29,147 nt of DNA from a virus. The translations under genes and the position numbers were made by a program. Position 1 is the stretch's first letter; every line of letters begins with the position of its first letter. This document shows, piece by piece, positions 1,678-25,908 of this stretch. The DNA is taken from positions 1 through 29,147 of the IMG/VR virus record IMGVR_UViG_3300046389_000509; one strand, given 5' to 3'. Under the pieces are notes generated by a model. That model searched no databases and was not told where the DNA came from. It worked only from the letters and a program-made list of their open reading frames with translations.

Positions 1678-2216
1678 TGGGAAAACAATTAGAATTATTT
1701 AGCAAAGCCGACGTGCCCTTTGTTAATGAAGTAGAAACTTTTAACCGCACGTTCGGAAAACCAAACAATTATGAACCGACAATACCAGAAAAAAAGGAGT
1801 GGGAATTCGTATACGACTTTGTACTTGAAGAATTGGAAGAATATAGACAGGCTTGCGAAAACGGAGACATCGTGGAAGTTTTGGATGCTCTGTGTGATAT
1901 TGCTTACGTTTCCCTTGGGAACGGTACTATGTTACACGGCCTTAAAGATAAGATATGGCCTGCATATCAAGAAGTACAAGGAAGCAATATGTCGAAGTCT
2001 TGTAGCACTAAAGAGGAAGCCATGGAAACTGTCACCCTCCGCTCTAAAGAACAAGATGAGCCATGTCACTTTGAACAGATCGAAGACCGATTCGTAGTAT
2101 ACAGAACACGTGATCGTAAAGTAATGAAATCAATTAATTACTATAGACCAGATTTAAAACAATTCTTTACAGGAGATGAATTACAAAAATTCCATAAACC
2201 AGCAACCTTTATTTAA
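1677..2216 (+). CDS. MazG-like (all-alpha) NTP pyrophosphohydrolase
   Basis: A 179-residue protein with the helical NTP-pyrophosphatase signature: E51-E52-x2-E55 in LEELEEYRQA, then E67-x2-D70-x3-D74 in VEVLDALCDIAYV. Such enzymes hydrolyse NTPs or dNTPs to monophosphates using Mg2+ held by these acids; phage members often tune nucleotide pools. The C-terminal ~70 residues (from about SCSTKEEA) are an extra domain I do not recognise. Base composition is unlike its neighbours: about 43% G+C over 1801-2100 by direct count, against about 22% in a sampled stretch of the polymerase gene (2941-3000), returning to low values near 2110. This suggests recent acquisition of most of the gene. The stop touches the next start. 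Confidence 0.75.
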   Translation: MGKQLELFSKADVPFVNEVETFNRTFGKPNNYEPTIPEKKEWEFVYDFVLEELEEYRQACENGDIVEVLDALCDIAYVSLGNGTMLHGLKDKIWPAYQEVQGSNMSKSCSTKEEAMETVTLRSKEQDEPCHFEQIEDRFVVYRTRDRKVMKSINYYRPDLKQFFTGDELQKFHKPATFI

Positions 2217-3967
2217 TGTATAAAAAGTGTTATTTAGGAGATAAAATAAAACCTAATGTTTTTCAAATGCATCTTTGGGAAGAAGATGGGGGACATCAAA
2301 TTATTGAATATGAAAATGTAGCATATCAAGAATGTACTGAAGAAGAACATACACATAAAGGATTAAATGGAGAATTTTTAAAATCCCAACCTAAATGGTT
2401 TTATTCTAAAAATCCGGATTATAGTCATAAAAATACACCTGGTTTACATTTCCATGATATGAAACCTCATCAAAAATTTTTAGTTGAGCGTTATGGTGTA
2501 AATGATGTTCCTTCTAAGGGACATAGAGAAGTATTTTTTGATATTGAGTGTGAAATAGGAGGAGCATTAACTGAAGAATATATTGAAGATGCTCCTATGC
2601 CTATTACTTCTATTGCTTGGTGGGATAAACAAAAAGATTATTGGTCTATACTTATTTTAGATAAAAAAAATCAACTATCACATACTAAAACAGGAAAAAA
2701 TAAAAATAAAGAAATTATTCCTTGTACTACAGAAAATGAATTGTTAGCTAAATTTATTGAAGCTATAAGAGAGATGGATCCCGATATACTAGTAGGTTAC
2801 AACTCAGATTATTTTGATATACCTTATTTATATTATAGAATGTGTAGAACAATAGGTAAAGATTGGGCTGATCATTTATCTCCTATTGGTAAAGTAGTTT
2901 CTAAGAAAAATAATAAATATTTTTTTAAACAAAATCAATATGTAGATATTGTAGGTATTGAATCTTTAGATTATATTCGTTTACATAAAAAATATAGTTG
3001 GAAAGATGAACCAAGTTGGAAATTAGATGCAATTGGGGCCAAATATGTAGGTATGAATAAAGTTGAATATGATGGAAATTTAGATCAACTATTTGAAACT
3101 GATATTCATAAATTTATTCAATATAACTTTGTTGATGTAGAAATTTTACAAAAGTTAGATGAAAAATTACAATATTTAGCTTTAACTAAAAACTTATCCC
3201 ATAAAGGTAAGCATAATTATAGTGAAGTTTATTCTAATAGTATTACTCAAGATGGAGCAATTTCTGCTTATTTATTATCCCAAAATATAGTTCCACCTCC
3301 TAAAGAACCTTTCCCTCAAAAGAAAGATAGTTATGCAGGAGGATATCTTTTTTGCCCTAAAGCAGGATTATACAAATATATGTTTGATGAAGATTTAACA
3401 TCGTTATACCCATCTATAATTATGTCAATTAACATTGGTAAAGAAACATTCGTGGGTCGTATTATAGATGCAGATGACCGTAATAATAGATTGGGTCTTA
3501 ACGATTTAAAAGAACGTGACCCCGAAGAAAAATTATTAGTAGAAAATGCAAAACGAAAACAAACCTATGTTAATGCTGGTAGGTTAGTTGAAATGATCAA
3601 ACAAAATGATTTAGCAGTAGCGGCTAATGGTTCAATGTTTAGAACAGATAAAGAAGCAGTATTATCCACTATACTTAAAAAATGGTTTAAGGAGCGTGTT
3701 ATTTATAAAAATGCAATGAAAAAAGCATATAAAGAAGGAAACAAAGAATTAGGTGAATATAATCATTTAATGCAATACACAATGAAAATTCTTTTAAATT
3801 CATTGTATGGTGCAACTGCATTACCTTCATTTAGGTATGGTATGAATTTCCAAACCCTAAGTGAAGCAATTACATTATCAGGACACAGAATAATCCAAGA
3901 ATCAGCCCTTTGTGCTAATAGACATATGAATAAAGTTATGCGAGGGGAATTAAAATTAGAAATATGA
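2216..3967 (+). CDS. 43A: DNA polymerase family B, N-terminal part (gp43A: exonuclease, motifs A and B)
   Basis: The 583-residue protein carries the 3'-5' proofreading exonuclease (FFDIECE with D109 and E111; DILVGYNSDYFDIPYL; YNFVDVEIL), polymerase motif A DLTSLYPSII with catalytic D393, and motif B K524-x3-NSLYG (N528, Y531, G532). It stops soon after motif B, before the DTDS motif C. Motif C occurs at residues 24-27 of the gene starting at 5302. The two parts total 894 residues, close to the 898 of intact T4 gp43, so this is a polymerase split in two at the palm. Each half lacks an essential catalytic aspartate and should need the other. Its TGA overlaps the next start (ATGA). Splits of gene 43 are known in some Aeromonas T4-like phages. 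Confidence 0.95.
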   Translation: MYKKCYLGDKIKPNVFQMHLWEEDGGHQIIEYENVAYQECTEEEHTHKGLNGEFLKSQPKWFYSKNPDYSHKNTPGLHFHDMKPHQKFLVERYGVNDVPSKGHREVFFDIECEIGGALTEEYIEDAPMPITSIAWWDKQKDYWSILILDKKNQLSHTKTGKNKNKEIIPCTTENELLAKFIEAIREMDPDILVGYNSDYFDIPYLYYRMCRTIGKDWADHLSPIGKVVSKKNNKYFFKQNQYVDIVGIESLDYIRLHKKYSWKDEPSWKLDAIGAKYVGMNKVEYDGNLDQLFETDIHKFIQYNFVDVEILQKLDEKLQYLALTKNLSHKGKHNYSEVYSNSITQDGAISAYLLSQNIVPPPKEPFPQKKDSYAGGYLFCPKAGLYKYMFDEDLTSLYPSIIMSINIGKETFVGRIIDADDRNNRLGLNDLKERDPEEKLLVENAKRKQTYVNAGRLVEMIKQNDLAVAANGSMFRTDKEAVLSTILKKWFKERVIYKNAMKKAYKEGNKELGEYNHLMQYTMKILLNSLYGATALPSFRYGMNFQTLSEAITLSGHRIIQESALCANRHMNKVMRGELKLEI

Positions 3968-4925: not shown

Positions 4926-5302
4926 TAGAAATTTCAAACGGAGAATTATTAGATAAAATTTCAATTTTAGAGTTAAAATTACTTAAAATTGAAGATGAAG
5001 AAAAACTAATAAATATTAAAAAAGAATTTGAAACATTAAACCCTTTAGTAATAGAACTATTTGAAAAGTATGATGGTCAATTACAAAATCATTATCTTGA
5101 ATTAGCTAAAATTAATGGTCAACTTTGGGATATAGAAGATTGGATTAGAGATTGTGAACGTGAAAAGAGATTTGATAAAGAATTTGTAGAACTAGCCCGT
5201 TCTGTGTATATTACCAATGATAAAAGATGTGAAGTTAAAAAATTAATCAATTTAATGACCTCATCAGGATTAGTAGAAGAAAAATCATATAAAGAATATT
5301 AA
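4919..5302 (+). CDS. DUF6165-like protein
   Basis: A 127-residue, mainly helical, charged protein. The opening MLVEISNGELLDKISILELK and the later FDKEFVELARSVYITNDKR and LVEEKSY resemble DUF6165, a family I recall next to glycosyltransferase and surface-polysaccharide genes in aquatic bacteria; this is from memory. No catalytic motif, signal peptide or membrane segment is visible. Function unknown. Its last base is the first base of the polymerase part B start codon, so it is probably co-transcribed with both polymerase genes. Confidence 0.65.
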   Translation: MLVEISNGELLDKISILELKLLKIEDEEKLINIKKEFETLNPLVIELFEKYDGQLQNHYLELAKINGQLWDIEDWIRDCEREKRFDKEFVELARSVYITNDKRCEVKKLINLMTSSGLVEEKSYKEY

Positions 5303-6237
5303 TGAAACATTTAGAAGAAACACCTTGGTGGATATGTGATACAGATGATGAAAATTATTGTGCCTACGTTGATACTGATTCTAATTATTTTAATGCTGAA
5401 CCTTTACTTTTTAAGTTATATCCTAATTTTGAAGAATTATCTGCAGAAAAAAAAGATGATATTTTAGAAAAGGTAGCAATGAAATATCAAGATGTAATTA
5501 ATGAAGATTATGATAGATTAGCTAAAGAGTGTTTTAATGTAACTGAACATCGACTTGAAATGAAAACTGAATGTGTTATTCGTTCAGCTTATTTTAGAGC
5601 AACTCGTCGTTATGCTCAATGGATTACTAAACAAGAAGGAATTGCTAAAGAATCTTTAGATATTAAAGGTTTGGAATTTATGAAAGCAAATTTTCCACCT
5701 ATCTTAGGATCATTTTTTAATGACATACTTCAACAGGTACTAAAAGGTGAAGAAAAATCTAGTATTTTAGATCAAATTAAAATATTTAAAAAACAAATCT
5801 TAGATGGTACAATACCACTTACTAAACTAGGTAATCCATCAGCAGTTAAAAAATTAGAAAAATACTCGGGTAAAAATGCTAGAGCAGGAGAAATGTTTAC
5901 AGAAATACTTAAAGGAGCTCCTGCACCTGTACGTGCTACAATTCGTTATAATGATTTATTAAGGTTATGGCAATTAGATAAAAAATATAATTTAATTACA
6001 CAAGCAGATAAAGTTAAATGGATTTATTTAAGAGATAACCCTTATAAAATAGAAGCATTAGCATTTCAAGATTTTGATGTGCCTGAAAAAATTAATGATT
6101 TTTTAAATGCTTATGCTGATAGACAAAAAGTATTTGATTCAATATTATTAAATAAATTAGAAGGATTCTTTAGTGACTTACAATGGTCATTAGATTTAAA
6201 TCCTTATACAAATGCATTAGCATCTTTTGAGATATAA
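5302..6237 (+). CDS. 43B: DNA polymerase family B, C-terminal part (gp43B: motif C and thumb)
   Basis: A 311-residue protein whose N-terminus reads through YCAYVDTDSNYF: motif C with catalytic D24 and D26. It continues with TRRYAQWITKQEG, the KKRY-like region of T4 gp43, and a long helical thumb. There is no exonuclease and no motif A or B, which are in the gene ending at 3967. Part A ends with about 9 residues after the conserved NKV; part B begins with 23 residues before DTDS. In intact T4 gp43 this linker is about 12, so both halves have gained a little sequence at the break. The C-terminus (ALASFEI) may correspond to the clamp-binding tail of phage polymerases. A clamp gene follows after 23 bases. 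Confidence 0.93.
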   Translation: MKHLEETPWWICDTDDENYCAYVDTDSNYFNAEPLLFKLYPNFEELSAEKKDDILEKVAMKYQDVINEDYDRLAKECFNVTEHRLEMKTECVIRSAYFRATRRYAQWITKQEGIAKESLDIKGLEFMKANFPPILGSFFNDILQQVLKGEEKSSILDQIKIFKKQILDGTIPLTKLGNPSAVKKLEKYSGKNARAGEMFTEILKGAPAPVRATIRYNDLLRLWQLDKKYNLITQADKVKWIYLRDNPYKIEALAFQDFDVPEKINDFLNAYADRQKVFDSILLNKLEGFFSDLQWSLDLNPYTNALASFEI

Positions 6238-7078: not shown

Positions 7079-7495
7079 ATGAGTACATTATTCAATGAAC
7101 GTACACCGTTCGACTTACTATTCCGTAACTTTTTTAAAGCAGACGGATCTTTTCAACCAACAACGTTTGACAACAAACAACCTCACCCACTAGATATTTT
7201 TTACGACGAAGAAGGGCTTCACTTTGAGATTGCCTGTACTGGTCTAACTAAAAAAGATATTCAACTAGAAATAGATGGAGATCTTTTAAAAATTATCTAT
7301 GATAAACCAAAAGAAGAAGAAGATTATTCTGGTTATATCTATAAAGGATTAGCTAAACGATCTTTTAATCTAGGTTATAAAGTAGCAGCTAAATTTGAAC
7401 TTGAAAGTTTAACTGCTGGAATGAAAGATGGCTTACTTCATATTTTTATTCCAATAGCTGAATCTAAGAAGCCAAAAACAATTAAAATTCAATAA
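7079..7495 (+). CDS. hsp20: Small heat-shock protein, Hsp20/alpha-crystallin family
   Basis: A 138-residue protein with a short N-terminal arm starting MSTLFNERTPFDLLFRNFF, then the alpha-crystallin domain from about residue 37 (PLDIFYDEEGLHFEIACTGL, KDIQLEIDGDLLKI) ending in AGMKDGLLHIFIPI. The C-terminus contains an I-K-I tail of the I-x-I type that packs between subunits. Such proteins form oligomers that hold unfolding proteins in a refoldable state without ATP. It lies 365 bases upstream of GroES/GroEL genes, so sHsp and chaperonin could act in sequence during virion or enzyme folding. Small Hsps are known in marine T4-like phages. Confidence 0.92.
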   Translation: MSTLFNERTPFDLLFRNFFKADGSFQPTTFDNKQPHPLDIFYDEEGLHFEIACTGLTKKDIQLEIDGDLLKIIYDKPKEEEDYSGYIYKGLAKRSFNLGYKVAAKFELESLTAGMKDGLLHIFIPIAESKKPKTIKIQ

Positions 7496-7507
7496 TAAGT
7501 TTTATTA

Positions 7508-7531
7508 AAAAAGCGTGTCCTAGCGCATTTT
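7508..7531 (+). terminator. Possible weak intrinsic terminator after hsp20
   Basis: AAAAAGCG (7508-7515) can pair with CGCATTTT (7524-7531) across an 8-base loop, with one A-A mismatch, followed by ATTT. The stem is A/U-rich and only three G-C pairs hold it, so termination would be weak at best. It lies between the hsp20 stop and the next promoter motif, which is the expected position. Confidence 0.3.
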
Positions 7532-7533
7532 AT

Positions 7534-7545
7534 TTCGTATATTAA
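7534..7545 (+). promoter_or_regulatory. Promoter motif TTCGTATATTAA upstream of the groES/groEL group
   Basis: TTCGTATATTA occupies 7534-7544 in the 70-base gap after hsp20. No TTTG is present at 19-20 bases upstream; the best partial match is GTG at 7515-7517, 20 bases before TATATTAA (7538-7545). The start codon of the next gene is 21 bases downstream (7566), leaving room for a short A/T-rich leader without a Shine-Dalgarno sequence. It would drive the small unknown gene plus groES and groEL. Confidence 0.5.
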
Positions 7546-7565
7546 CGTCTAAATAAATAAGTTAT

Positions 7566-7883
7566 ATGATAAAAAAAAGAAAGTCTATTCAGACTATTAC
7601 CGATCCCTTACTAGAACCATTCTTTATTACTAAGGACGAATACAGTTATACTGTAAAACAAAATGTGACATCTGATGCCAATCATTTTAGGGCTAAAGGT
7701 AAAGCAAAAACTTATGAAAAATCCCTATATTATTATGCTAATTTTGAACAGGCTTTACAAAAAATAGCTAAATTACAAGCTGATATTGAAGATTTTGATA
7801 GTTTAGATGAATATATTAACAATTATACAAAAATAAGTACTAACATTAAAAATTATACAAATGGAATTAGAAGCATTGTTTGA
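7566..7883 (+). CDS. Conserved-looking small phage protein, 105 aa, unknown function
   Basis: The protein begins MIKKRKSIQTITDPLLEPFFITKDEYSY and continues KGKAKTYEKSLYYYANFEQALQKIAKLQ, then a helical tail. The phrase ITDPLL-x-PFFITKDEYSYTV followed by a YYxxFxxAL-x-KIA helix is one I associate with small hypothetical proteins of phages and mobile elements in Bacteroidetes, but no function is known to me. It starts 21 bases after a promoter motif. It overlaps the GroES gene by 23 bases, so the two are translationally linked. Confidence 0.75.
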   Translation: MIKKRKSIQTITDPLLEPFFITKDEYSYTVKQNVTSDANHFRAKGKAKTYEKSLYYYANFEQALQKIAKLQADIEDFDSLDEYINNYTKISTNIKNYTNGIRSIV

Positions 7884-8172
7884 TGCCGTTATTGTAAAAC
7901 CCCAAGAAGTTGAAGAAACTACTTATGGGTCAATTATTGTGCCTGATTTAGGTAAAGATAGAAATGAGCATGGAACTGTAGTAGCAGTAGGTCCTGGTAA
8001 ACCAACTGTAACTGGAACTTTTTTACCAACAACTGTAAAGGTTGGGGATAAAGTAGTTTTACCAACAGTAGGTTTTACTAAATTACAACATTTAGGAGAT
8101 GAATATTATATTGGCCCCGAAAATCAAATTTTAGCAAAAATTAACCAAACAGAGAAAAAAGAAGATGAATAA
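7861..8172 (+). CDS. groES: Co-chaperonin GroES (Cpn10 family)
   Basis: A 103-residue protein with GroES order: LFDAVIVKPQEVEETT (first strand), a mobile loop with hydrophobic tripeptide IIV in GSIIVPDLGKD, EHGTVVAVGPGK, then VKVGDKVVLP and a terminal DEYYIGPENQILAKI strand as in bacterial GroES. This is a true Cpn10 relative rather than the divergent gp31 of T4. It forms the heptameric lid of the chaperonin encoded immediately downstream. The mobile loop is shorter than in E. coli, which may suit the phage GroEL specifically. It overlaps the groEL start by 8 bases. Confidence 0.93.
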   Translation: MELEALFDAVIVKPQEVEETTYGSIIVPDLGKDRNEHGTVVAVGPGKPTVTGTFLPTTVKVGDKVVLPTVGFTKLQHLGDEYYIGPENQILAKINQTEKKEDE

Positions 8173-9784
8173 ACAAGTTACATTAGGTTCAAAAGCTAGA
8201 ACCAATTTAGTAAAAGGAATTGATACCTTAGCTGATGCTGTAGTATCAACACTAGGACCAAATGGTCGAAATGTAGTAATAGCAAACGAAATGGGAGTTC
8301 CACAATCAACAAAAGATGGAGTTACAGTTGCTAAATCAATTAAACTAAAAGATCCTGAACAAGAATTAGGAGTACAATTAGTAAAACAAGCTGCAATTAA
8401 AACAGCTGAAAAAGCAGGTGATGGTACAACTACATCTACTTTATTAGCTCGTGAAATGGTAAAAGCAGGATTAAATGCTTTAAATAATAATGAAAATGCA
8501 GTCCAAATTAAACGTGATATTGATTCTACAGTTGAAAAAGTAGTTAACAATCTTAGAAACAATATTTCAGAAGATATCTCAGGAGAAGAACAATTAGAAC
8601 AAATTGCAACTATATCAGCAAATAATGATCCAGAAACCGGAAAATTAATTGCTACTGCTATTGACAAAGTAGGAATGGAAGGAGTTGTTCATATAGAAGA
8701 ATCCCGAACAGGAGAAACATATTTGGAAACAGTAGAAGGTATGCAATTTGATAGAGGTTATAAATCCCCGTATTTTGTAACTGATAATAATACAATGACT
8801 GCTACTTTAGATAATCCACTTATATTAATTGCGGATAGTAAAATTACTCAAGTAAAAGAATTATTACCTATTCTTGAAAGTGTTTCTTCACAAGCAAAAT
8901 CATTACTTATTATAGCAGAAGATATTGATCAAGAAGCATTAGCAACTCTTATTGTTAATAAAATGAGAGGTACTATGAAAGTATGTGCTGTAAAAGCCCC
9001 AGATTTTGGTGATAGACGTAAATTAGTTTTAGAAGATATTGCAGTCACAACAGGTGGTGTAGTATTTGATAAACAAAAAGGAATGAAAATGGATAAATTT
9101 AGTTGGGAATGGTTTGGAGAAGCTAGAACCGCAACTATAGATAAAGAAAAGACAACACTGGTAGATGGAAAAGGAACAATTGAATCAATTGAAACACGTA
9201 TTGAAGAACTACAACAACAAATTGACAAAGCAGACTCACCGTTCGAAATCGAAAAACTCCAAGAAAGACTTGCAAAATTTGTCGGAGGAGTAGCAGTTAT
9301 TCATGTAGGTGGAAATACTGAAACTGAAATGAAAGAGAAAAAAGATAGGGTTGATGATGCTTTACATGCAACAAAAGCCGCTATTGAAGAAGGTATAGTA
9401 CCTGGTGGTGGAACAGCATTATTATATGCATCATCAGGATTAGAAGCTAAAACAACAGGAGCAGCTATTGTAATAGAAGCTTGTGCTAAACCCTTTAATC
9501 AAATTTTAGTTAATGCTGGGTTTGATGAAGTTAAGGGGCAAATTTTAGCTGATAATTTAGTTAACTCTGGTAATGATACTTGGGCTGGATTTAATATTAA
9601 AAATGAAAAAACAGTTAATATGAAAGAAGCTGGTATTATCGATCCAACTAAAGTAGCAAGAACTGCATTGCAAAATGCGGCATCTGTTGCTGGTACAGTA
9701 TTACTAACAGAATGTACTGTAGTAAATGAAATTACTGAGGAAAATCCTCAACAACAAGTTGATCCATCAATGATGGGTTATTAA
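8165..9784 (+). CDS. groEL: Chaperonin GroEL (Cpn60), full length
   Basis: A 539-residue protein, essentially full length (E. coli 548). Equatorial: LGPNGRNVVI, TKDGVTVAK with D51 and AGDGTTTSTLLA with D86 (E. coli D52, D87); apical: DRGYKSPYFVTD, KAPDFGDRR; second equatorial: VDDALHATKAAIEEGIVPGGG with D398, the residue needed for ATP hydrolysis. All catalytic aspartates are kept, so it should be an active ATPase ring. The C-terminus ends DPSMMGY and lacks the GGM repeats of host GroELs. With GroES adjacent, the phage supplies its own folding chamber, probably for capsid or other large phage proteins. Internal antisense frames are shadows. Confidence 0.97.
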   Translation: MNKQVTLGSKARTNLVKGIDTLADAVVSTLGPNGRNVVIANEMGVPQSTKDGVTVAKSIKLKDPEQELGVQLVKQAAIKTAEKAGDGTTTSTLLAREMVKAGLNALNNNENAVQIKRDIDSTVEKVVNNLRNNISEDISGEEQLEQIATISANNDPETGKLIATAIDKVGMEGVVHIEESRTGETYLETVEGMQFDRGYKSPYFVTDNNTMTATLDNPLILIADSKITQVKELLPILESVSSQAKSLLIIAEDIDQEALATLIVNKMRGTMKVCAVKAPDFGDRRKLVLEDIAVTTGGVVFDKQKGMKMDKFSWEWFGEARTATIDKEKTTLVDGKGTIESIETRIEELQQQIDKADSPFEIEKLQERLAKFVGGVAVIHVGGNTETEMKEKKDRVDDALHATKAAIEEGIVPGGGTALLYASSGLEAKTTGAAIVIEACAKPFNQILVNAGFDEVKGQILADNLVNSGNDTWAGFNIKNEKTVNMKEAGIIDPTKVARTALQNAASVAGTVLLTECTVVNEITEENPQQQVDPSMMGY

Positions 9785-13553: not shown

Positions 13554-13754
13554 ATGAGTTCAACAAAAAACCAAACACTAACTAGTGTTAAAGTCCAAAC
13601 CCCTTTATTTGAGGAATTTAAAATTGAATGTGTAAAGCGTAAATTTTCATTTCAAAAACTTGCTGATCGTGCTTTGTTTTTGTATCTTACAGATGAAGAT
13701 TTTCGTAAAAAAATTACAAATCAAATTAACCTCCAAATAAAAAAGAATGGATAG
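13554..13754 (+). CDS. Small ribbon-helix-helix-like protein, 66 aa
   Basis: The sequence TSVKVQTPLFEEFKIECVKRKFSFQKLADRALFLYLTDEDFRKKI has the strand-helix-helix order of ribbon-helix-helix (Arc/MetJ type) DNA-binding proteins: an alternating strand (SVKVQ), a helix with buried hydrophobics, a turn at F-S-F, and a second helix. Members usually act as dimeric repressors. It is the first gene after an intergenic promoter-like region and overlaps the first glycosyltransferase gene by 8 bases, so it could regulate the cluster or its own operon. The fold is inferred from pattern only. Confidence 0.65.
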   Translation: MSSTKNQTLTSVKVQTPLFEEFKIECVKRKFSFQKLADRALFLYLTDEDFRKKITNQINLQIKKNG

Positions 13755-15195
13755 AAAATTTAGTTATATTCCCAAAGATAAACGTAAAAAAATACTTTTA
13801 ATTTGTGATGATATCAGAGTACATTCAGGTGTTGCTACTGTTGCTAAAGAAATTGTAGTACATACTGCAAATCATTTTAATTGGTGTCAAATAGCAGGTG
13901 CTATTAGACATCCTGAAAAAGGAAAACAACTAGATCTATCAGATGAAACTAATAAAGTAGCAAAAATTGAAGATTCTTATGTAAAATTATTCCCTGTAGA
14001 TGGTTATGGTAATGAACAGATTTTAAGAGAAATTTTAAAATTTGAAAAACCAGATGCCGTAATGTTGTTTACAGATCCAAGATATTTTGAGTTTGTTTTT
14101 AGAATGGAGGCTGAAATTAGAAAAATTTGTCCTATTATGTATCTTAATATTTGGGATGATTTACCTGCTCCTATGTATAACAGTGCTTACTATGAAGCTT
14201 GTGATTTATTAATGGGAATTTCAAAACAAACTGTAAATATTAATAAGTTAGTTTTAAAAGGAAAAGAAAAAAATAGACTATTTAAATATTTACCTCATGG
14301 TAAAAATGAAAATATCTATTACCCTTTAACACAAGAAGAAAAATCATCAAAAGATTTTATTAACTTTAAAAAAAGTATATTTAAAAATAAAAACCCTAAA
14401 TTTGTTGGTTTCTTTAACTCTAGGAATATTAGAAGAAAACAAATCCCTGATACTTTATTAGCTTTTAGAGAATTTTTATATTCATTACCTAAAGAAGAAG
14501 CTAAAGAATGTTTTCTAATATTACATACAGAAGCAGTAACTGATCATGGTACAGATCTATATAAAGTAAGAGAATATTTATTTGGAGAAGATTTTGAAGA
14601 TCAAATTATATTTTCCCACCAAAAATATGATGATAGAATATTAAATTGGTTATATAATATAGCTGATGTACAACTATTAATTACATCAAATGAAGGATGG
14701 GGATTAACAATTACTGAGGCTATTTTAGCAGGTACTCCTATTATAGCTAATACTACAGGTGGGATGCAAGATCAAATGAGATTTGTAGATAATGAAGGTA
14801 AATGGTTTGAACCGGATGAGAATGTGCCTTCTAATCATAGGGGTACATATAAAGAACATGGTGAATGGGCATTTCCAGTTTATCCAACTTCAAATTCAAT
14901 ACAAGGTTCTCCTCCTACTCCTTACATTTATGATGATAGATGTTCATGGGAAGATGTTAGTAAAAGATTAAAAGAAGTATATCTTATGAATAAAGAGGAA
15001 CTTCAATCTAGAGGGTTAAAAGGTAGAGAATGGGCTATAAGTAATGAAGCTGGTTTTACATCAAAACACCAGGCTGAAAGATTTGTAGAATATGTAAATG
15101 AACTATTTGATACTTGGGAACCAAGAGAAAAATATGAAATAGTAAATGCAAATGAATATAAAGGAAAATTTTTAAACCATAAAATAATTTATTAA
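13747..15195 (+). CDS. Glycosyltransferase, GT4-type (GT-B fold)
   Basis: A 482-residue protein with N-terminal KKILLICDDIRVHSGVATVAKEI (nucleotide-fold entry with a glycine loop) and a C-terminal donor-binding domain with NEGWGLTITEAILAGTPIIANTTGG, the E-x7-E signature of retaining GT4 transferases. The C-terminal extension carries EEVYLMNKEEL-like helices typical of the family. It transfers a sugar from an NDP-sugar to a glycan or protein acceptor in the cytoplasm. No membrane segment. First of the sugar genes; its last base is shared with the next start codon. Confidence 0.88.
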   Translation: MDRKFSYIPKDKRKKILLICDDIRVHSGVATVAKEIVVHTANHFNWCQIAGAIRHPEKGKQLDLSDETNKVAKIEDSYVKLFPVDGYGNEQILREILKFEKPDAVMLFTDPRYFEFVFRMEAEIRKICPIMYLNIWDDLPAPMYNSAYYEACDLLMGISKQTVNINKLVLKGKEKNRLFKYLPHGKNENIYYPLTQEEKSSKDFINFKKSIFKNKNPKFVGFFNSRNIRRKQIPDTLLAFREFLYSLPKEEAKECFLILHTEAVTDHGTDLYKVREYLFGEDFEDQIIFSHQKYDDRILNWLYNIADVQLLITSNEGWGLTITEAILAGTPIIANTTGGMQDQMRFVDNEGKWFEPDENVPSNHRGTYKEHGEWAFPVYPTSNSIQGSPPTPYIYDDRCSWEDVSKRLKEVYLMNKEELQSRGLKGREWAISNEAGFTSKHQAERFVEYVNELFDTWEPREKYEIVNANEYKGKFLNHKIIY

Positions 15196-16909: not shown

Positions 16910-17764
16910 ATGAAAATATTAGTTACAGGTGGAGTTGGATTTGTAGGAACAGCTCTAATTAAAAAATTGTTAACCGAGGGACATAATGTTCACTCATTAG
17001 ATAATTATGAAATTGGTGTTATTGAAAATGAAATAGCTGGTTGTAATTATCATATTGGGGATATAGAAAATATAAGTTTAATGGATAAAGATTTTGATCT
17101 AATATTTCATTTAGCTGCTCTATCTAGAATACAACCTTCATTTAATAATCCAAATGAAACCTACAGAGTTAATACAATTGGAACACAAAGGGTATGTGAA
17201 TTTGCTAGATTAACGGGAGCTAAAGTTGTATATGCTGGTTCCTCTTCTAGATGGCATGATCCATATCAATCACCTTATGCTGCGTGTAAACACATGGGAG
17301 AAGAAGCATGTAAAATGTATAAAAAAACCTATGGTATGAATATTGAAATAGTTAGGTTTTATAATGTTTATGGTCCTGGTGAAATAGTAGATGGAGATTG
17401 GGCTGCGGTTATAGGAAAATGGAGACGTCAAGTTAGAGATGGAGAACCAATAACCATTGTAGGTAATGGTGAACAAAGAAGAGATTTTACCTATATAGAT
17501 GACATTATAGATGGACTATGGAAAATTGGAATGAAGGAATTAACACATGAAGATGCCTGGGAATTAGGAACGGGTATGAATTATTCTATTAATGATGTTT
17601 ATTTAATGTTTAAGGAAAGATTTGGAGTTGATTTTATTAACTTACCAGACCAATCAGGCAATTATAGAGCTACTTTAAGAGAAAATGATGATAGTTTAGA
17701 TAAATTAAATTGGAAACCTTCAGATAAATTAAGAGATTATATCTTAAGTTTAAACAAAAATTAA
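16910..17764 (+). CDS. NAD-dependent NDP-sugar epimerase/dehydratase (extended SDR)
   Basis: A 284-residue extended short-chain dehydrogenase. The NAD loop GGVGFVG is at residues 7-13; HLAALSRIQPS follows strand 4; the active site is AGSSSR with Y123-x3-K127 (YAACK). RFYNVYGPGE and RRDFTYIDDIIDGLW match UDP-glucose 4-epimerase/GDP-mannose dehydratase relatives. The substrate is probably a UDP-, GDP- or dTDP-sugar; epimerase versus dehydratase cannot be resolved. Starts directly after the previous stop codon. Confidence 0.85.
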   Translation: MKILVTGGVGFVGTALIKKLLTEGHNVHSLDNYEIGVIENEIAGCNYHIGDIENISLMDKDFDLIFHLAALSRIQPSFNNPNETYRVNTIGTQRVCEFARLTGAKVVYAGSSSRWHDPYQSPYAACKHMGEEACKMYKKTYGMNIEIVRFYNVYGPGEIVDGDWAAVIGKWRRQVRDGEPITIVGNGEQRRDFTYIDDIIDGLWKIGMKELTHEDAWELGTGMNYSINDVYLMFKERFGVDFINLPDQSGNYRATLRENDDSLDKLNWKPSDKLRDYILSLNKN

Positions 17765-20057: not shown

Positions 20058-21209
20058 ATGAAACAAACAAAAAAAATTTGGTATGCTCCTTATAAGCATG
20101 AAGCTTATGGTCAAGAAGAAATTGATGCCGTAGTTGAATCACTAAAATCAGGTTGGTTAGGAGGACAAGGTCCTAAATCAGTTGAATTTGAAGAAAAAAT
20201 TGCTAAAACATTTGGTAAAAAATATGGTGTATTTGTTAACTCGGGTTCATCAGCATGTTTATTAGCTATTGCTGCTTTAGACTTACCTAAAGGAACTAAA
20301 ATTATTACACCTGCTTGTACATTTGCTACCACATTAGCTCCTATTATCCAATTAGGATATGTACCTGTATTTGTAGATGTAGATTTAACTACATATTGTG
20401 CAAATATAGATCAAGTTATAGCTAAAGTAACAGATGATACATCAGCAATTATGTTGCCAAATTTAATTGGTAATAAACCAGATTGGCCTAGACTTAAAAA
20501 GGCATTAGTTGATATGGGTAGAGAAGATATTTATTTAATTGAAGATTCAGCTGATACTTTAACTCAAACACCTGAAACAGATGTTGCCACTACTAGTTTT
20601 TACGCTTCACACGTTATTACAGCTGGTGGAGTAGGTGGAATGGTAATGTATAATGATAAAAAACATGTTACTAAATGTTTACAATATAGAGATTGGGGTA
20701 GATTAGGTGATGATTCTGAGATTATGGATGATAGATTTAATCATATAGTAGATGGGATTCCTTATGATCATAAATTTTTATATTCAGTATTAGGTTATCA
20801 TATGAAAGCTAGTGAAATGAATGCCGCATTTGGTATTGTTCAATTAGAAAGATTTGGTGTTAATAGTAAAATTAGAAGAGATAATGTTGAACGTTATTTA
20901 GAAAATTTAAAAGGGGTTGGGGATCTAATTTTACCTGATGATAGTATTAAACCTAATTGGTTAGCAATACCCTTACAAACAGAAAAAAGATTTGAATTAT
21001 TAAACTTTTTAGAGGATAATAACATCCAAACTAGAGTAACATTTGCCGGTAATGTAACTAGACACCCAGTTTATCGTGAGTATTTAGAAGACTTTGAAAA
21101 TTCAGATACTATTATGAAAAATGGATTTTTACTAGGAGCTCATCACGGGATGACTGTTGAAGATGTAGATATTGTATGTGATAAAGTTAAAGAATTTTTT
21201 AATAAATAG
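20058..21209 (+). CDS. PLP-dependent NDP-sugar 3-dehydratase-like enzyme (DegT fold; ColD/RfbH type)
   Basis: A 383-residue DegT/DnrJ/EryC1-fold protein: GWLGGQGPKSVEFEEKI, VNSGSSACLLAIAAL, FVDVDLTTYCANID, IEDSADTL. Where aminotransferases have the PLP-binding lysine, this protein has H185 in SFYASHVITAGGVGG. Lysine-to-histidine replacement is the diagnostic change in ColD and RfbH (E1), which remove the C3 hydroxyl rather than transfer an amino group. RDWGR and YDHKFLYSVLGYHMKASEM also match RfbH. The cysteines that bind 2Fe-2S in RfbH are absent between RDWGR and YDHK, so it is closer to the iron-free ColD. Likely product: a 3-deoxy or 3,6-dideoxy-4-ketohexose nucleotide. Confidence 0.85.
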   Translation: MKQTKKIWYAPYKHEAYGQEEIDAVVESLKSGWLGGQGPKSVEFEEKIAKTFGKKYGVFVNSGSSACLLAIAALDLPKGTKIITPACTFATTLAPIIQLGYVPVFVDVDLTTYCANIDQVIAKVTDDTSAIMLPNLIGNKPDWPRLKKALVDMGREDIYLIEDSADTLTQTPETDVATTSFYASHVITAGGVGGMVMYNDKKHVTKCLQYRDWGRLGDDSEIMDDRFNHIVDGIPYDHKFLYSVLGYHMKASEMNAAFGIVQLERFGVNSKIRRDNVERYLENLKGVGDLILPDDSIKPNWLAIPLQTEKRFELLNFLEDNNIQTRVTFAGNVTRHPVYREYLEDFENSDTIMKNGFLLGAHHGMTVEDVDIVCDKVKEFFNK

Positions 21210-21893
21210 ATGAAAGTAGCTATATTAGGGGATGGATTACTAGGAATAGAATTATCAAAACAAACTAATTGGGATATTATTAGTAGAAATTCTCATGGTC
21301 TTGATTTTAATGATATATCATCTTGGTATCAATATTTAGTTAAATATGATGTAATTATTAATTGTATAGCTAACACTGATTCATACTCCAAAGATAAAAC
21401 CCAACATTGGAACATAAATTATAAATCAGTAGTAAGACTATGTAATTGGTGTAATGAATATGATAAAAAATTAGTACATATATCTACTGAATTTGTTTAT
21501 GCTAATAATGAAAAACCACCTACAGAAGAAGATATTCCATCCCCTGATAATACTTGGTATGCTTATACTAAATTATTAGCAGATGAATATATTAAACTTA
21601 CTAGTTTTAATTATCTAATTTGTAGAGAATTACATAAACCAAATCCATTCCTATATGATGAGGTTTGGAAAGTCCAAACATCAGGAGATACAGTTGATAA
21701 AATAGCTAATTTAATAATACAATTAATAAATAAAAATGCTAGTGGAGTTTTTAATGTTGGTACTGGGGATAAATGGTTAAAAGAACTTGCACCTAAAACA
21801 AGTAAAGTAATACCACCTCCATTTAAAACCCCATTTGATACTAGAATGGACTTAACTAAACTTAATAACTTTTTAAATGAGAATAATATATAG
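21210..21893 (+). CDS. RmlD-like sugar reductase (SDR)
   Basis: A 227-residue protein with N-terminal MKVAILGDGLLGIEL (NAD(P)-binding G-x-G-x-x-G variant), DVIINCIANTDSYSKDK, then VHISTEFVYANNEKPPTEED and the Y-x3-K site in WYAYTKLLADEY. These elements match dTDP-4-dehydrorhamnose reductase (RmlD) and relatives. It is shorter than RmlD (about 290), with a reduced substrate domain. Next to a 3-dehydratase it would be the natural 4-keto reductase that finishes a deoxysugar. Starts immediately after the previous stop; overlaps the next gene by 17 bases. Confidence 0.8.
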   Translation: MKVAILGDGLLGIELSKQTNWDIISRNSHGLDFNDISSWYQYLVKYDVIINCIANTDSYSKDKTQHWNINYKSVVRLCNWCNEYDKKLVHISTEFVYANNEKPPTEEDIPSPDNTWYAYTKLLADEYIKLTSFNYLICRELHKPNPFLYDEVWKVQTSGDTVDKIANLIIQLINKNASGVFNVGTGDKWLKELAPKTSKVIPPPFKTPFDTRMDLTKLNNFLNENNI

Positions 21894-22572
21894 AATATCA
21901 GATGCTGGTTATAATAAAGTCAAACCAGAATATATTAATAATGAAAATTGTTTAGCTAATGCTACTAAGGTATTTGATAATTCAACCTGGAGTGTTATAG
22001 CAGATAATGTATCCCCAGATACTAATAATATGATTCAAAAATATGTAACACGTAATTGTATTTTATATGCTGAAAAAGGTAATGGGGCTGCAACATTTAA
22101 TTTAGCATTGGATGAAGCCTTAACTTATGATGATGAAGAAATAATATATTTTATAGAGAATGATTATTTGCATAAACCTGAATCTGAAAAAATAATAGAA
22201 GAAGGATTTAAATTAGGAGCATCATTTGTATCATTATATGACCATCCAGATAAATACATTACACCTGAAAATGGTGGTAATCCTTATTGTCAAGGTGGAG
22301 CTGAAGACACAAGAGTATATTTAACTGATTCTTGCCATTGGAAAATAACTAATAGTACTACTATGACTTTTGCTGCTAAAGTAAAAACATTAAAAAAAGT
22401 AGAACCTACACTTAGAGCTTATACTACTGGAACCTACCCTCAGGATTTTAAAATGTTTTTGGATTTAAGAAAACAAGGACATTTGTTAGTAACACCTTTA
22501 CCTGGATATTCTACTCATGGAGAAACTGCTTGGTTAACTCCTTTAACTAAATGGGAACAATATATAAAATGA
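21877..22572 (+). CDS. Putative GT-A glycosyltransferase-like protein, 231 aa
   Basis: N-terminal MRIIYRISDAGYNKVKPEYI, then STWSVIADNVSPDT, CILYAEKGNGAATFNLALDEAL and EIIYFIENDYLH. The order (strand, N-terminal helix, G-N-G segment, IxFxExD before an aromatic) follows GT2-like enzymes, with ENDY at the D-x-D site. The C-terminal part has CHWKITNSTTMTFAAKVKTLK and a STHGETAWL end often seen in small phage or aquatic-bacterial glycosyltransferases. Function inferred from fold pattern and context; acceptor unknown. Confidence 0.6.
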   Translation: MRIIYRISDAGYNKVKPEYINNENCLANATKVFDNSTWSVIADNVSPDTNNMIQKYVTRNCILYAEKGNGAATFNLALDEALTYDDEEIIYFIENDYLHKPESEKIIEEGFKLGASFVSLYDHPDKYITPENGGNPYCQGGAEDTRVYLTDSCHWKITNSTTMTFAAKVKTLKKVEPTLRAYTTGTYPQDFKMFLDLRKQGHLLVTPLPGYSTHGETAWLTPLTKWEQYIK

Positions 22573-23333
22573 TAACAGTAGTAATTACAACATATAAAGA
22601 ACCTAAGGCATTAGATATTTGTTTACAATCCGCTATTAAAGGGCAAGTCCACGATAATCAGATTATTGTAGTAGTAGATGGTTATTATGACTTAAATAAA
22701 GAAGTACTAGATAAATATAAGGATAAAATAAATACCCTTAATTTAGAAAATAATTTAGGAATGATTAAGGCCATGAATTTAGGTCATTATAATGCCCATC
22801 ATGATTTGGTATTTCATGTTCAAGATGATAATGTATTTCCAAATAAATGGGATGAAAAATTATTAGAACATTATAAAGAAGGATCAGTTTTAACCCCAAA
22901 CCAAATAGAACCTAATCCAAGTATGTTTCCTCAATTTAGTATAAAAGATTTAGGAACGGATTTAAATAACTTTAATTTATCTTCATTTTGGGATTACAAT
23001 GAATTAATATCTAAAAATGAATTTGATGAATGTGGTTCAACTTTCCCTTTCTTAATATCTAAATCTGATTATCTAAAAATAGGTGGATTTGATGAATCAT
23101 ACCCAGGACCTTGGGTTGTTGATTGGGAATTTTTTATGAAATGTCAAATGAATGGATTAAAAATGATTAGAACTTATAACTGCCATTTTTACCATTTTGT
23201 ATCATTAGGGACAAAATCACAAGAACAATTAGAGGAAGCAAAACAAAAAGAAAATTTATGTCATAAATTTGCCTTATACAAATGGGGTTCGTATATTAAA
23301 CATAACCCTAATAATAACATAAAATATATTTAA
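22569..23333 (+). CDS. Glycosyltransferase, GT2 family
   Basis: Start at ATG 22569, which forms an ATGA overlap with the preceding stop and gives MITVVITTYKEPKALDICLQS; an in-frame ATG at 22551 would add six residues (MGTIYK) but lacks the usual overlap. GT2 landmarks: IIVVVDGYYD, ENNLGMIKAMNLG, LVFHVQDDNVF (D-D-N as the D-x-D site) and PWVVDWEFFMKCQMNGLKM (the D/E-D catalytic region), 254 residues. A copy of the promoter motif (23288-23298) lies near its 3' end. Confidence 0.87.
   Translation: MITVVITTYKEPKALDICLQSAIKGQVHDNQIIVVVDGYYDLNKEVLDKYKDKINTLNLENNLGMIKAMNLGHYNAHHDLVFHVQDDNVFPNKWDEKLLEHYKEGSVLTPNQIEPNPSMFPQFSIKDLGTDLNNFNLSSFWDYNELISKNEFDECGSTFPFLISKSDYLKIGGFDESYPGPWVVDWEFFMKCQMNGLKMIRTYNCHFYHFVSLGTKSQEQLEEAKQKENLCHKFALYKWGSYIKHNPNNNIKYI
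23268..23299 (+). promoter_or_regulatory. Promoter-like element inside the end of a glycosyltransferase gene
   Basis: TTTG (23268-23271) followed after 20 bases by TATATTAA (23292-23299), with TTCG directly before it (TTCGTATATTA at 23288-23298). It lies within coding sequence (near WGSYIKH) and 34 bases upstream of the start of the next gene at 23333, so it could be an internal promoter for the right-hand part of the sugar cluster. Confidence 0.45.
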
Positions 23334-23773
23334 TGGAAAATATAATAGGATTTACAGCAGGTAACTTTGATCTAATCCATCCAGGATATATCTATACATT
23401 TGAAGAAGCAAAACGTCATTGTGATTATTTCATGGTGTTTTTACAACGTGATCCATCTGAAACTAGGTTTACTAAATACAAACCTGTTATTCCTTTATAT
23501 GAAAGGTATAAAACTTTAATGGCTATCGAATATGTAGATGAAGTAGTTACATATCAAACAGAAGAAGAATTAATAAGTCTAATTGAATTTTATAAACCCG
23601 ATATTAGAATTTTAGGAGACGATTACATTGGTAAAAGATTTACAGGGGATTATTTACCTCAAAAAGTAATTTATACTACCAGATCACATGGTTGGTCAAC
23701 TACTAAGTTGAAAAATATGATTACTAAACAAACAGTTTTACAAAATCCTGATGTTTTAAATGAAAAAAATTAG
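23333..23773 (+). CDS. Cytidylyltransferase-like nucleotidyltransferase (TagD/RfaE-C type)
   Basis: A 146-residue HxGH-superfamily protein: IIGFTAGNFDLIHPGYIYTFEEAK (H16-P-G-Y19 in place of HxGH), DYFMVFLQRDPS, then YKTLMAIEYVDEVV and a C-terminal TTRSHGWSTTKLKNMI loop like the STT-type signature. These proteins activate a sugar- or polyol-phosphate with CTP or ATP. The second histidine of the motif is a tyrosine, so catalysis may be altered. Its presence among deoxysugar genes suggests it makes a nucleotide-activated precursor. It overlaps the next gene by 14 bases. Confidence 0.75.
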   Translation: MENIIGFTAGNFDLIHPGYIYTFEEAKRHCDYFMVFLQRDPSETRFTKYKPVIPLYERYKTLMAIEYVDEVVTYQTEEELISLIEFYKPDIRILGDDYIGKRFTGDYLPQKVIYTTRSHGWSTTKLKNMITKQTVLQNPDVLNEKN

Positions 23774-24197
23774 TGACCATAGAGGATTATTTTTTTTAGA
23801 TAATAATGCTAGATATGATCAAGTATTTATTGCAACTAATGAAGCTAGGCATACTTTTAGAGGTATGCATTTTCAAACTAATCCTTATCAAATTAAAAAT
23901 TTAACAATTATCCAAGGGGAAGTTTTAGATTTTTTATATAATATTAAAACAGGTGAAGTAAAAGAATATAATTTAAAAGTAGGAGATACACTTACTATTA
24001 GTGAAGAGTATGCTCATGGTTATTTAACATTAGTACCTGACACTATAGTATATTATGGAGTAAAAGGAAAATTTAATCCTGATACATACAAAAGTATTGT
24101 ATGGAATACAATTCCTAGTATAAAAAATACAATAGAAACAATTATAGGTGACTTAAATAGAATTACAATTTCAGAAAAAGATAAATTAGGAAAATGA
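23760..24197 (+). CDS. RmlC-like cupin (dTDP-4-dehydrorhamnose 3,5-epimerase family)
   Basis: A 145-residue cupin with the RmlC pattern: TFRGMHFQ with catalytic-base H37, K46 in YQIKNLTI, then IIQGEVLDFLYNIKTGE, a LKVGDTLTISEEYAHGYLTLVPD region and a final YYGVKGKFNPDT...IVWN. Shorter than RmlC (about 180), but the active-site residues are present. It would epimerise a 4-keto sugar nucleotide at C3 and/or C5. The 4,6-dehydratase gene follows with an ATGA overlap, as in rml operons. Confidence 0.82.
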   Translation: MKKISDHRGLFFLDNNARYDQVFIATNEARHTFRGMHFQTNPYQIKNLTIIQGEVLDFLYNIKTGEVKEYNLKVGDTLTISEEYAHGYLTLVPDTIVYYGVKGKFNPDTYKSIVWNTIPSIKNTIETIIGDLNRITISEKDKLGK

Positions 24198-25081
24198 GAA
24201 TAATAGTAACAGGAGGAGCAGGATTTATAGGATCCCATTTTATAAATTTTGTAGGTAAACAAAACCCAACAACTGAGATTGTATTGGTAGATAAATTAAC
24301 TTATGCTTCTAATTTGAACAATTTAGATGTTAAAGTTAAATTTATTAAAAAAGATATATGTGATATAACCCCAGAGGATTTAGGAATATATGATTATTTA
24401 ATCAATTTTGCAGCTGAAAGTCATGTTGATAATTCAATTAAAAATGGAAAACCATTTGTAAAAACAAATGTTGAAGGTACTTTTAATTTATTAGAAGTAG
24501 CTAGACAAAATCCTAATCTAAAAAAATTCGTTCAAATATCTACTGATGAAGTTTATGGTGATATGGATGATTATGGTCCTGGTGTTTTAGCTGATGAAAA
24601 ATTTAGTTTAATTGGATCATCATATTATTCATCAACTAAGGCGTCTGCTGATTTATTAGTTCAAGCAGCAGGTAGAACATATGGATTACCCTATTTAATA
24701 ACTCGTACGTGTAATAATTACGGAAAAAACCAACATCAAGAAAAATTATTGCCTACAATAATAAATTGTGTTAAAAATAATCTTAAAATTCCTATCTATG
24801 GAGATGGTCAAAATATAAGAGAATGGATACATGCTGATGATAATTCAATGATAATATTCAATTTATTAAATTCAGATAAAACAGGAGTACATAACATAGG
24901 TTCAGGTGAAAGATATACTAATTTACAAATAATTGAAACTATAGAAAAAATATTAGGTTATCAATTAGATTTAAAGTTTGTAGAAGATAGAAAAGGCCAT
25001 GATAGAGCTTATGGTTTATTAACTAATTATACACCTGTATTACAAAATAACTTGACAAAATATTTAACAGAACAATTATGA
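24194..25081 (+). CDS. NDP-sugar 4,6-dehydratase, RmlB-like (extended SDR)
   Basis: A 295-residue protein with NAD loop GGAGFIG (residues 7-13), AAESHVDNSIKN, catalytic STDEVYG (D118-E119) and Y145-x3-K149 in YSSTKAS; REWIHADDN and HNIGSGERYTNLQ follow as in dTDP-glucose 4,6-dehydratase. Shorter than RmlB (about 350) in its C-terminal substrate domain. It produces the 4-keto-6-deoxy intermediate used by the RmlC-, RmlD- and ColD-like enzymes in the same cluster. No RmlA-type thymidylyltransferase is visible, so the donor sugar may be host-made or supplied through the cytidylyltransferase. Confidence 0.9.
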   Translation: MRIIVTGGAGFIGSHFINFVGKQNPTTEIVLVDKLTYASNLNNLDVKVKFIKKDICDITPEDLGIYDYLINFAAESHVDNSIKNGKPFVKTNVEGTFNLLEVARQNPNLKKFVQISTDEVYGDMDDYGPGVLADEKFSLIGSSYYSSTKASADLLVQAAGRTYGLPYLITRTCNNYGKNQHQEKLLPTIINCVKNNLKIPIYGDGQNIREWIHADDNSMIIFNLLNSDKTGVHNIGSGERYTNLQIIETIEKILGYQLDLKFVEDRKGHDRAYGLLTNYTPVLQNNLTKYLTEQL

Positions 25082-25908
25082 AAATAGGAATTATAGGACA
25101 AGGATTTGTAGGTAATGCTATATACCAAAAGTTTAAAAATTATTATAATGTAATAACTTATGATTTAAAACCAAATTTATGTAATTCTACATTTGAAGAA
25201 GTAGCTAAACAATTAGTTATATTTGTTTGTCTTCCTACTCCAATGAATATGGATGGAAGTTGTAATATTGATTTAATTGAAAAAACTCTTTTAAAAATAT
25301 CTCAATCTCCATCTCCAAATTTATTTAGAACAATAGTAATTAAATCAACAATCCCCCCAGGTACAACTGATAAATTAAATGCTAAATATGATAATCTTCA
25401 TATTATGTTTAATCCTGAATTTTTAACTGAAGCTAATGCTATAGAAGACTTTAATAATCAAAATAGAATAATTTTAGGAGGTCATAAAGATGTTACATCC
25501 TACCTTAAAACTATATACATTAAAGTATTTCCACAAGCACGTATAATTAAAACTGATTCAACTCATGCAGAAATGGTAAAGTATCTAATAAATACATTTC
25601 TTTCAACCAAAGTATCTTTTGCAAATGAGATGTACGAAATAAGTAAATCATTAGGTATTGATTATGATAAGGTTATTGAGTATGCAACATTAGATGATAG
25701 ATTAGGAAAATCACATTGGAATGTACCAGGACCAGATGGGGATTTTGGATTTGGTGGACATTGTTTTCCAAAAGACCTCCAGGCATTGATATCATTAGCA
25801 CACGATTTAAATGTATCCCCAAGAATATTAACAGCAGTTGATTGTAAAAACAATGATGTTAGAAAAAACAAAGATTGGAAACAAATGAGAGGGAGAGCTG
25901 TAATATAG
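25078..25908 (+). CDS. UDP-glucose/GDP-mannose dehydrogenase-like protein, short
   Basis: A 276-residue protein: MKIGIIGQGFVGNAIYQKF (Rossmann loop), LVIFVCLPTPMNMDGS, IVIKSTIPPGTTDKL, MFNPEFLTEANAIEDF and GFGGHCFPKDL with nucleophile C229 and K232. These match the N-terminal NAD and central domains of the UDP-glucose/GDP-mannose dehydrogenase family, which oxidise a C6 hydroxyl to a carboxylate. It stops about where the central domain ends and lacks the C-terminal sugar-nucleotide-binding domain (full enzymes are about 390-440). It may work on another substrate or be partly degraded. Last gene of the cluster. Confidence 0.85.
   Translation: MKIGIIGQGFVGNAIYQKFKNYYNVITYDLKPNLCNSTFEEVAKQLVIFVCLPTPMNMDGSCNIDLIEKTLLKISQSPSPNLFRTIVIKSTIPPGTTDKLNAKYDNLHIMFNPEFLTEANAIEDFNNQNRIILGGHKDVTSYLKTIYIKVFPQARIIKTDSTHAEMVKYLINTFLSTKVSFANEMYEISKSLGIDYDKVIEYATLDDRLGKSHWNVPGPDGDFGFGGHCFPKDLQALISLAHDLNVSPRILTAVDCKNNDVRKNKDWKQMRGRAVI

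Follow-up and report, generated by a model that had tools for sequence, protein, structure and literature searches.

The question raised by this locus is what a viral protein of the DegT fold does when the Schiff-base lysine of DegT aminotransferases has been replaced by histidine. The window (the whole stretch of 29,147 nucleotides that was analysed, from virus record IMGVR_UViG_3300046389_000509 of an uncultured T4-like phage) contains a T4-like replication set, GroEL/ES, Hsp20 and GTP cyclohydrolase, as read from its open reading frames, together with a + strand gene of 383 codons from ATG whose product matches Pfam DegT_DnrJ_EryC1 (PF01041) with 237 bits. The encoded enzyme very probably removes the C3 oxygen of an activated sugar. 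Judged from sequence comparison and, above all for function, from gene context, it is likely to be a PMP-dependent nucleotide-sugar 3-dehydratase from an Fe-S-free lineage that would be the third after those of E1/RfbH and ColD, with dTDP-4-keto-6-deoxyglucose as the likeliest substrate. The gene and the residues on which this reading depends are as follows.

20058..21209, + strand: SFYASH-type DegT-fold protein, putative Fe-S-free PMP-dependent NDP-4-keto-6-deoxyhexose 3-dehydratase (PF01041, PDB, AF2/Foldseek)
20544..20546, + strand: D163, invariant across all His- and Lys-type rows of the alignment
20595..20630, + strand: active-site stretch SFYASHVITAGG, residues 180-191 (alignment with E1, ColD and aminotransferases)
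20688..20702, + strand: RDWGR motif, residues 211-215 (alignment)
20763..20819, + strand: YDHKFLYSVLGYHMKASEM motif, residues 236-254, common to E1/RfbH (YDHKYTYSHLGYNLKITDM)

The replacing residue, H185 (codon 20610-20612), aligns with H220 of E1 and H188 of ColD, at the position where six Lys-type aminotransferases have lysine, and D163 is the conserved aspartate that we take to bind the ring nitrogen of PLP/PMP. In place of Cys193, Cys251, Cys253 and Cys261 of E1 the phage protein has A165, G217, a gap and M223, the last three of these positions lying just past the RDWGR motif. An earlier sequence-only reading had placed H185 at the PLP lysine position, found the Fe-S cysteines of RfbH missing, and quoted motifs resembling RfbH/ColD; the alignment, and for H185 also its invariance in relatives, bears out these observations, all of the quoted motifs being present, with YDHKFLYSVLGYHMKASEM and the RDWGR residues W213, G214 and R215 common to E1. 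The AF2 model (pLDDT 94.3, pTM 0.92) retrieves E1 as the top Foldseek match (3e-34), with ColD further down the list, and the best PDB match by sequence is likewise E1 (3bcx, 1.4e-56). The score against the E1/RfbH family model NF011936, 256 bits, is below its cut-off of 423.

Searches for relatives by close patterns matched 114 viral stretches; profile patterns matched 229. Among the 80 viral loci kept from the close-pattern set, in which identity falls to 72%, H185 is unchanged and SFYASH[VI]ITAGG is the active-site motif without exception; H185 is likewise present in all 64 rows of the SFYASH clade in the alignment. This invariance indicates that the exchange of histidine for lysine is not due to chance. 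The same 64 rows all lack the three Fe-S cysteines that belong to the RDWGR region, and at the position equivalent to E1 193 they have either A or C. The DegT gene also appears highly conserved relative to its neighbours, a comparison that is inflated because the loci were picked by that same gene. No match was obtained in a close-relative scan of bacterial genomes, and a profile scan recovered bacterial members of the clade. The branch is widespread: besides phages, it includes relatives of 38-76% identity from Patescibacteria, Flavobacteriales, Pelagibacter, SAR86, Prochlorococcus, Rhodospirillales, Chlamydiae and others. The relatives matching at 71-76% come from MAGs and single-cell genomes (L082-L084) and may represent phage sequence. 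Two bacterial sequences are single-frame fusions, one joining a sugar C-methyltransferase to an SFYASH dehydratase (L096:6738-9191) and the other, from Magasanikbacteria, joining an SFYASH dehydratase to an RmlB-type 4,6-dehydratase (L094:8001-10325).

The genes surrounding the DegT gene in the window encode glycosyltransferases and further sugar enzymes.

13747..15195, + strand: GT4 glycosyltransferase, conserved anchor upstream of the sugar island (PF00534; 52% identical in Flavobacterium phage immuto)
15195..16469, + strand: second GT4 glycosyltransferase, anchor (PF00534; in >500 viral stretches)
16910..17764, + strand: extended SDR, nucleotide-sugar epimerase/dehydratase (PF01370, 166 bits; relative in phage immuto)
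17767..18396, + strand: GT2 glycosyltransferase, anchor (PF00535; 66% identical in phage immuto)
21210..21893, + strand: short RmlD-like SDR, proposed 4-keto reductase of the 3-deoxy product (PF04321, 63.6 bits)
22551..23333, + strand: GT2-like glycosyltransferase, within the island
23333..23773, + strand: cytidylyltransferase-like protein of HldE-C/TagD type (PF01467; TIGR02199 under cut-off)
23760..24197, + strand: RmlC-like 3,5-epimerase homologue (PF00908, 57.8 bits)
24194..25081, + strand: RmlB-like dTDP-glucose 4,6-dehydratase, proposed source of the 4-keto-6-deoxy substrate (TIGR01181)
25078..25908, + strand: UDP-glucose/GDP-mannose dehydrogenase-like protein (TIGR03026, 203 bits, over cut-off)

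Family matches and alignments thus support the RmlB-, RmlC- and RmlD-like enzymes that had been named for this cluster. The RmlB-like protein keeps STDEVYG and YSSTKAS when aligned with 6bi4. In the RmlC-like protein, the His of RGMHF, the Lys of IKN, the Tyr of VYY and the Asp of SEKD align with RmlC, which rules out a homologue lacking the catalytic Asp and Tyr. About 97 of the 114 loci have the DegT gene in an island anchored by the same order of genes (GT4, GT4, small protein, GT2). When loci were instead selected by the second GT4 (n=80, many of them fragments), an SFYASH DegT protein was present in 10, a Lys-type in 1 and a ColD-like protein in 2. Among isolates, the closest that carries the anchor is Flavobacterium phage immuto, and there a Lys-type aminotransferase occupies the corresponding position. 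The sugar island is therefore variable, and the dehydratase is one of the genes that it may contain. ColD-like proteins with the motif SLYFGHH were seen at L257:19253 and L258:19253, in islands of related phages with the same glycosyltransferase anchor. Elsewhere in the window, Hsp20, GroES and GroEL lie close together (7079-9784), the GroEL being 59% identical to that of phage immuto, and a family-B DNA polymerase appears by eye to be split between 2216-3967 and 5302-6237, with three other genes between. A FabH-like 3-ketoacyl-ACP synthase III was recognised, also by eye, in the part of a near-identical phage contig that extends downstream of the window (L386:12596-13615). The phage whose GT4 and GroEL are nearest to those of the window points to Flavobacteriia as the probable hosts.

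The partners of the DegT gene provide a view of its function from outside the gene itself. Using a profile of the 21210-21893 reductase rather than of the DegT gene, 80 viral loci were selected; 65 of these contain a His-type DegT protein (44 SFYASH and 21 Fe-S E1-type, the latter including two in which a cysteine is hidden by an intein), none contains a Lys-type, and in 15 DegT is absent. The His-type gene nearly always lies upstream of the reductase, either directly or separated by one small gene. Since all but one of the profile sequences came from loci with either DegT type, and many of the 44 SFYASH loci are on contigs already recovered by the DegT search, it is the E1-type loci that supply independent evidence here. 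The intein in the E1-type 3-dehydratases of L382:2554-5001 and L384 sits exactly at the Fe-S motif (WWGRD / CHPAGTS...SHN / CYCVGS).

A second kind of partner is found in 25 of the 114 viral loci, where a ThDP enzyme takes the place of the reductase. Among 20 viral loci selected by the ThDP enzyme, 17 have a 3-dehydratase, of which 10 are Fe-S E1-type (all with the four cysteines and the His) and 7 are SFYASH; the other 3 are without DegT. In many of these loci the gene order is 3-dehydratase, RmlB, ThDP enzyme and PanB-like protein. The best solved matches of the ThDP enzyme are 5ahk, annotated as acetolactate synthase II and presumably PpYerE, and JanthE 8rph (301 and 293 bits, respectively), plain acetolactate synthases reaching at most 232. 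JanthE is a YerE-like enzyme (PMC12188165). YerE itself acts on the compound that E1-type 3-deoxygenation yields, CDP-4-keto-3,6-dideoxyglucose, and attaches a two-carbon unit to it (PMC12247030). ErwE uses 4-hydroxy-2-oxobutanoate as keto-acid donor (PMC12247030). In most phage cassettes the YerE-like gene is followed by PanB (ketopantoate hydroxymethyltransferase, >320 bits), which may make a hydroxymethylated keto-acid donor of this kind for a branched sugar; an SDR assignment for the 311-aa gene after the ThDP enzyme was ruled out by this Pfam match. In about a dozen further phage loci the dehydratase has a split transketolase-like pair (~200 and 156 aa) on its downstream side.

L286:7805-8740, L290:7573-8505 and others: PanB-like genes (PF02548)
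L043:9137-10209 and L190:9137-10212: split transketolase-like pair

Reductase and ThDP partners appear mutually exclusive in a Fisher test that does not count relatedness (p 2e-9); after correction for relatedness the exclusivity is not significant: three contrasts are supported, nearly every pairing has none that contradicts the prediction, and the test lacks power. The argument for function places no weight on this exclusivity. Both the reductase and the ThDP probe, which are unrelated, recover SFYASH and Fe-S E1-type proteins, so that the two types interchange in one slot. This is the main reason for assigning them the same net reaction, and the gene context suggests that the Fe-S and Fe-S-free dehydratases may be functionally interchangeable.

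Several other readings of the protein need to be weighed against a separate Fe-S-free 3-dehydratase branch. The Pfam and PHROG family names read aminotransferase, yet an ordinary aminotransferase misread at the outset has almost no probability and is refuted at the sequence level: lysine is missing throughout the clade, and the tree, a check that the sequence-only reading had itself proposed, splits all His-type proteins from the Lys-type aminotransferases with support of 100/99 and does not place this protein among the true aminotransferases. The SFYASH group forms one side of a branch with the same support (100/99); a 78-row tree was also built. A lysine-to-histidine change is by itself no proof of dehydration, and a DegT-fold protein that has moved past aminotransfer to another reaction or a sensory role (epimerase, isomerase or dead enzyme) could be imagined. 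We consider this improbable in the extreme, given that the protein keeps the residues of those alignment columns in which E1, ColD and the SFYASH group hardly vary, that conservation is strong across hundreds of viral stretches, and that the protein is interchanged with E1-type enzymes beside the same partners. Little more credence is due to a true ColD orthologue, a GDP-4-keto-6-deoxymannose 3-dehydratase leading toward GDP-colitose. The absent Fe-S cysteines, the His base and an E-value of 2.8e-36 to ColD would all agree with it, and an AU test does not reject the grouping of SFYASH with ColD (p-AU 0.069). E1 is nevertheless closer by 66 bits; the best tree places the SFYASH clade beside E1 (82/87), with ColD outside the E1+SFYASH group; and W213, R215, D237 and K239 are common to E1 and differ from ColD in the alignment. 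Genuinely ColD-like phage proteins exist and group elsewhere, the ColD side of the tree including those of cyanophages S-CAM7 and ACG-2014f and the E1 side holding Fe-S proteins of cyanophage S-H68, marine virus AG-345-D19 and a huge phage. (An AU test holding E1 and ColD together was set aside, as it says nothing on grouping with aminotransferases.) The tree thus favours a separate Fe-S-free branch, here called SFYASH, nearer to E1/RfbH than to ColD, and together with the structure match that ranks E1 first it points to a 3-dehydratase homologue with E1-like loops that lacks the E1 cluster. Of the ColD-type reaction originally proposed, the His-type, Fe-S-free 3-dehydratase is supported and the ColD placement is not supported.

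The nucleotide carried by the substrate separates the remaining readings. The 24194-25081 protein scores 286 bits as dTDP type (TIGR01181), as against 52 for the CDP type and 34 for the GDP-mannose family, and an RmlB-type protein of ~300 bits occurs in 9 of 19 long phage records, every phage RmlB match being under the TIGR01181 cut-off. Neither a GDP-mannose dehydratase nor a CDP-glucose dehydratase was found as partner in the phages, and with a dehydratase partner of dTDP rather than GDP or CDP type, colitose itself, the sugar to whose precursor ColD leads, is without support. A 3-dehydratase of the same kind whose natural substrate is CDP-4-keto-6-deoxyglucose, the CDP sugar coming from the host, is unlikely, although less so than the readings above. 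Clade members in Flavobacteriales adjoin genes for a glucose-1-phosphate cytidylyltransferase and a CDP-glucose 4,6-dehydratase that each exceed the family cut-off, and the likely phage host group is Flavobacteriia; specificity for the nucleotide may therefore differ between branches. Against a CDP substrate, the phage's own dehydratase is of RmlB type and no CDP-type dehydratase over cut-off is present in the 19 long phage records. A convincing RmlA is also absent from these 19 records, the RmlB gene does not adjoin the dehydratase gene in the window, and no 4,6-dehydratase is in view at many of the phage loci. The 2Fe-2S ferredoxin domain PF00111 is present in none of 21 phage records, and PF00175 in one of 21; the former gives no sign of an E3 reductase. 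The records may be incomplete, and the host could supply such a reductase.

For the Fe-S-free 3-dehydratase we infer a route (chemistry, nucleotide, order of steps, stereochemistry and acceptor alike) that would begin with host dTDP-glucose, converted by the RmlB-like enzyme (24194-25081) to what is most likely the substrate, dTDP-4-keto-6-deoxyglucose. By analogy with ColD, PMP would be formed by amino transfer from glutamate and would condense with the C4 keto group of the 4-keto-6-deoxyhexose; H185 would then serve as the acid/base expelling the C3 hydroxyl, and hydrolysis would release a 4-keto-3,6-dideoxyhexose, no one-electron reductase taking part. The RmlD-like enzyme (21210-21893) would reduce C4, perhaps after 5-epimerisation by the RmlC-like protein, to give a dTDP-3,6-dideoxyhexose whose sugar phage glycosyltransferases would transfer to a phage-made glycan, with virion protein, DNA or the host surface as candidate acceptors. 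More broadly, a swappable module of T4-like phages, in which a dTDP-type, Fe-S-free 3-dehydratase makes 4-keto-3,6-dideoxyglucose that passes either to a reductase or to a YerE-like/PanB-like branch, is an attractive but tentative extension, to which we give somewhat less than an even chance.

Known 3-dehydratases are few, namely E1, ColD, SpnQ and a few unstudied ones (PMC8987622), and phage-encoded RfbH annotations already exist (PMC11295528). The literature searched, with partial coverage, yielded annotation-level mentions only of phage dideoxyhexose enzymes, no description of an Fe-S-free E1-like branch or of phage YerE/PanB cassettes, and no characterised member of the SFYASH branch. If the proposed function is correct, 3-deoxygenation on an E1-like architecture would be possible without an Fe-S cluster, and the natural swapping of Fe-S and Fe-S-free types beside the same partners would offer a clean comparison of two chemistries. 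Phages seem to trade ready-made gene sets for rare sugars in which a 3-dehydratase feeds a reductase or a carbon-adding enzyme, and such modules would be swapped at one set position of T4-like genomes, in the manner of serotype cassettes, making the role of phage-made glycans testable with defined sugars. Phages would then be makers of rare and branched-chain sugars, among them dTDP-3,6-dideoxyhexoses, a class with no example known to us.

Compared with known systems, the phage protein most resembles E1/RfbH/DdhC (CDP-6-deoxy-L-threo-D-glycero-4-hexulose-3-dehydrase, 3bcx), which likewise has the DegT fold and His at the lysine position and has in common with it the RDWGR and YDHK...GYN motifs and partner genes in phages. 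E1/RfbH, however, has [2Fe-2S] cysteines, of which C251, C253 and C261 are lacking in the phage protein, and works with an E3-type reductase, none of which was seen in the phage records, where the dehydratase partner is of RmlB (dTDP) type. ColD (GDP-4-keto-6-deoxy-D-mannose-3-dehydratase, 2gms) also combines the DegT fold with a catalytic His and no Fe-S cluster; the phage protein differs from it by one additional residue between SFY and the His, by other loop residues, and by having no GDP-mannose dehydratase as partner. Homologues from cyanophages S-H68, S-CAM7 and ACG-2014f are also phage-encoded His-type DegT proteins in sugar clusters and are 28-34% identical to the protein described here, but that of S-H68 retains the Fe-S cysteines and those of S-CAM7 and ACG-2014f are ColD-like. 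Finally, the YerE-type pathways for yersiniose and erwiniose consume the 4-keto-3,6-dideoxy product, and YerE-like ThDP enzymes occur in the same cassette in related phages, whereas the window has a reductase in place of the ThDP enzyme.
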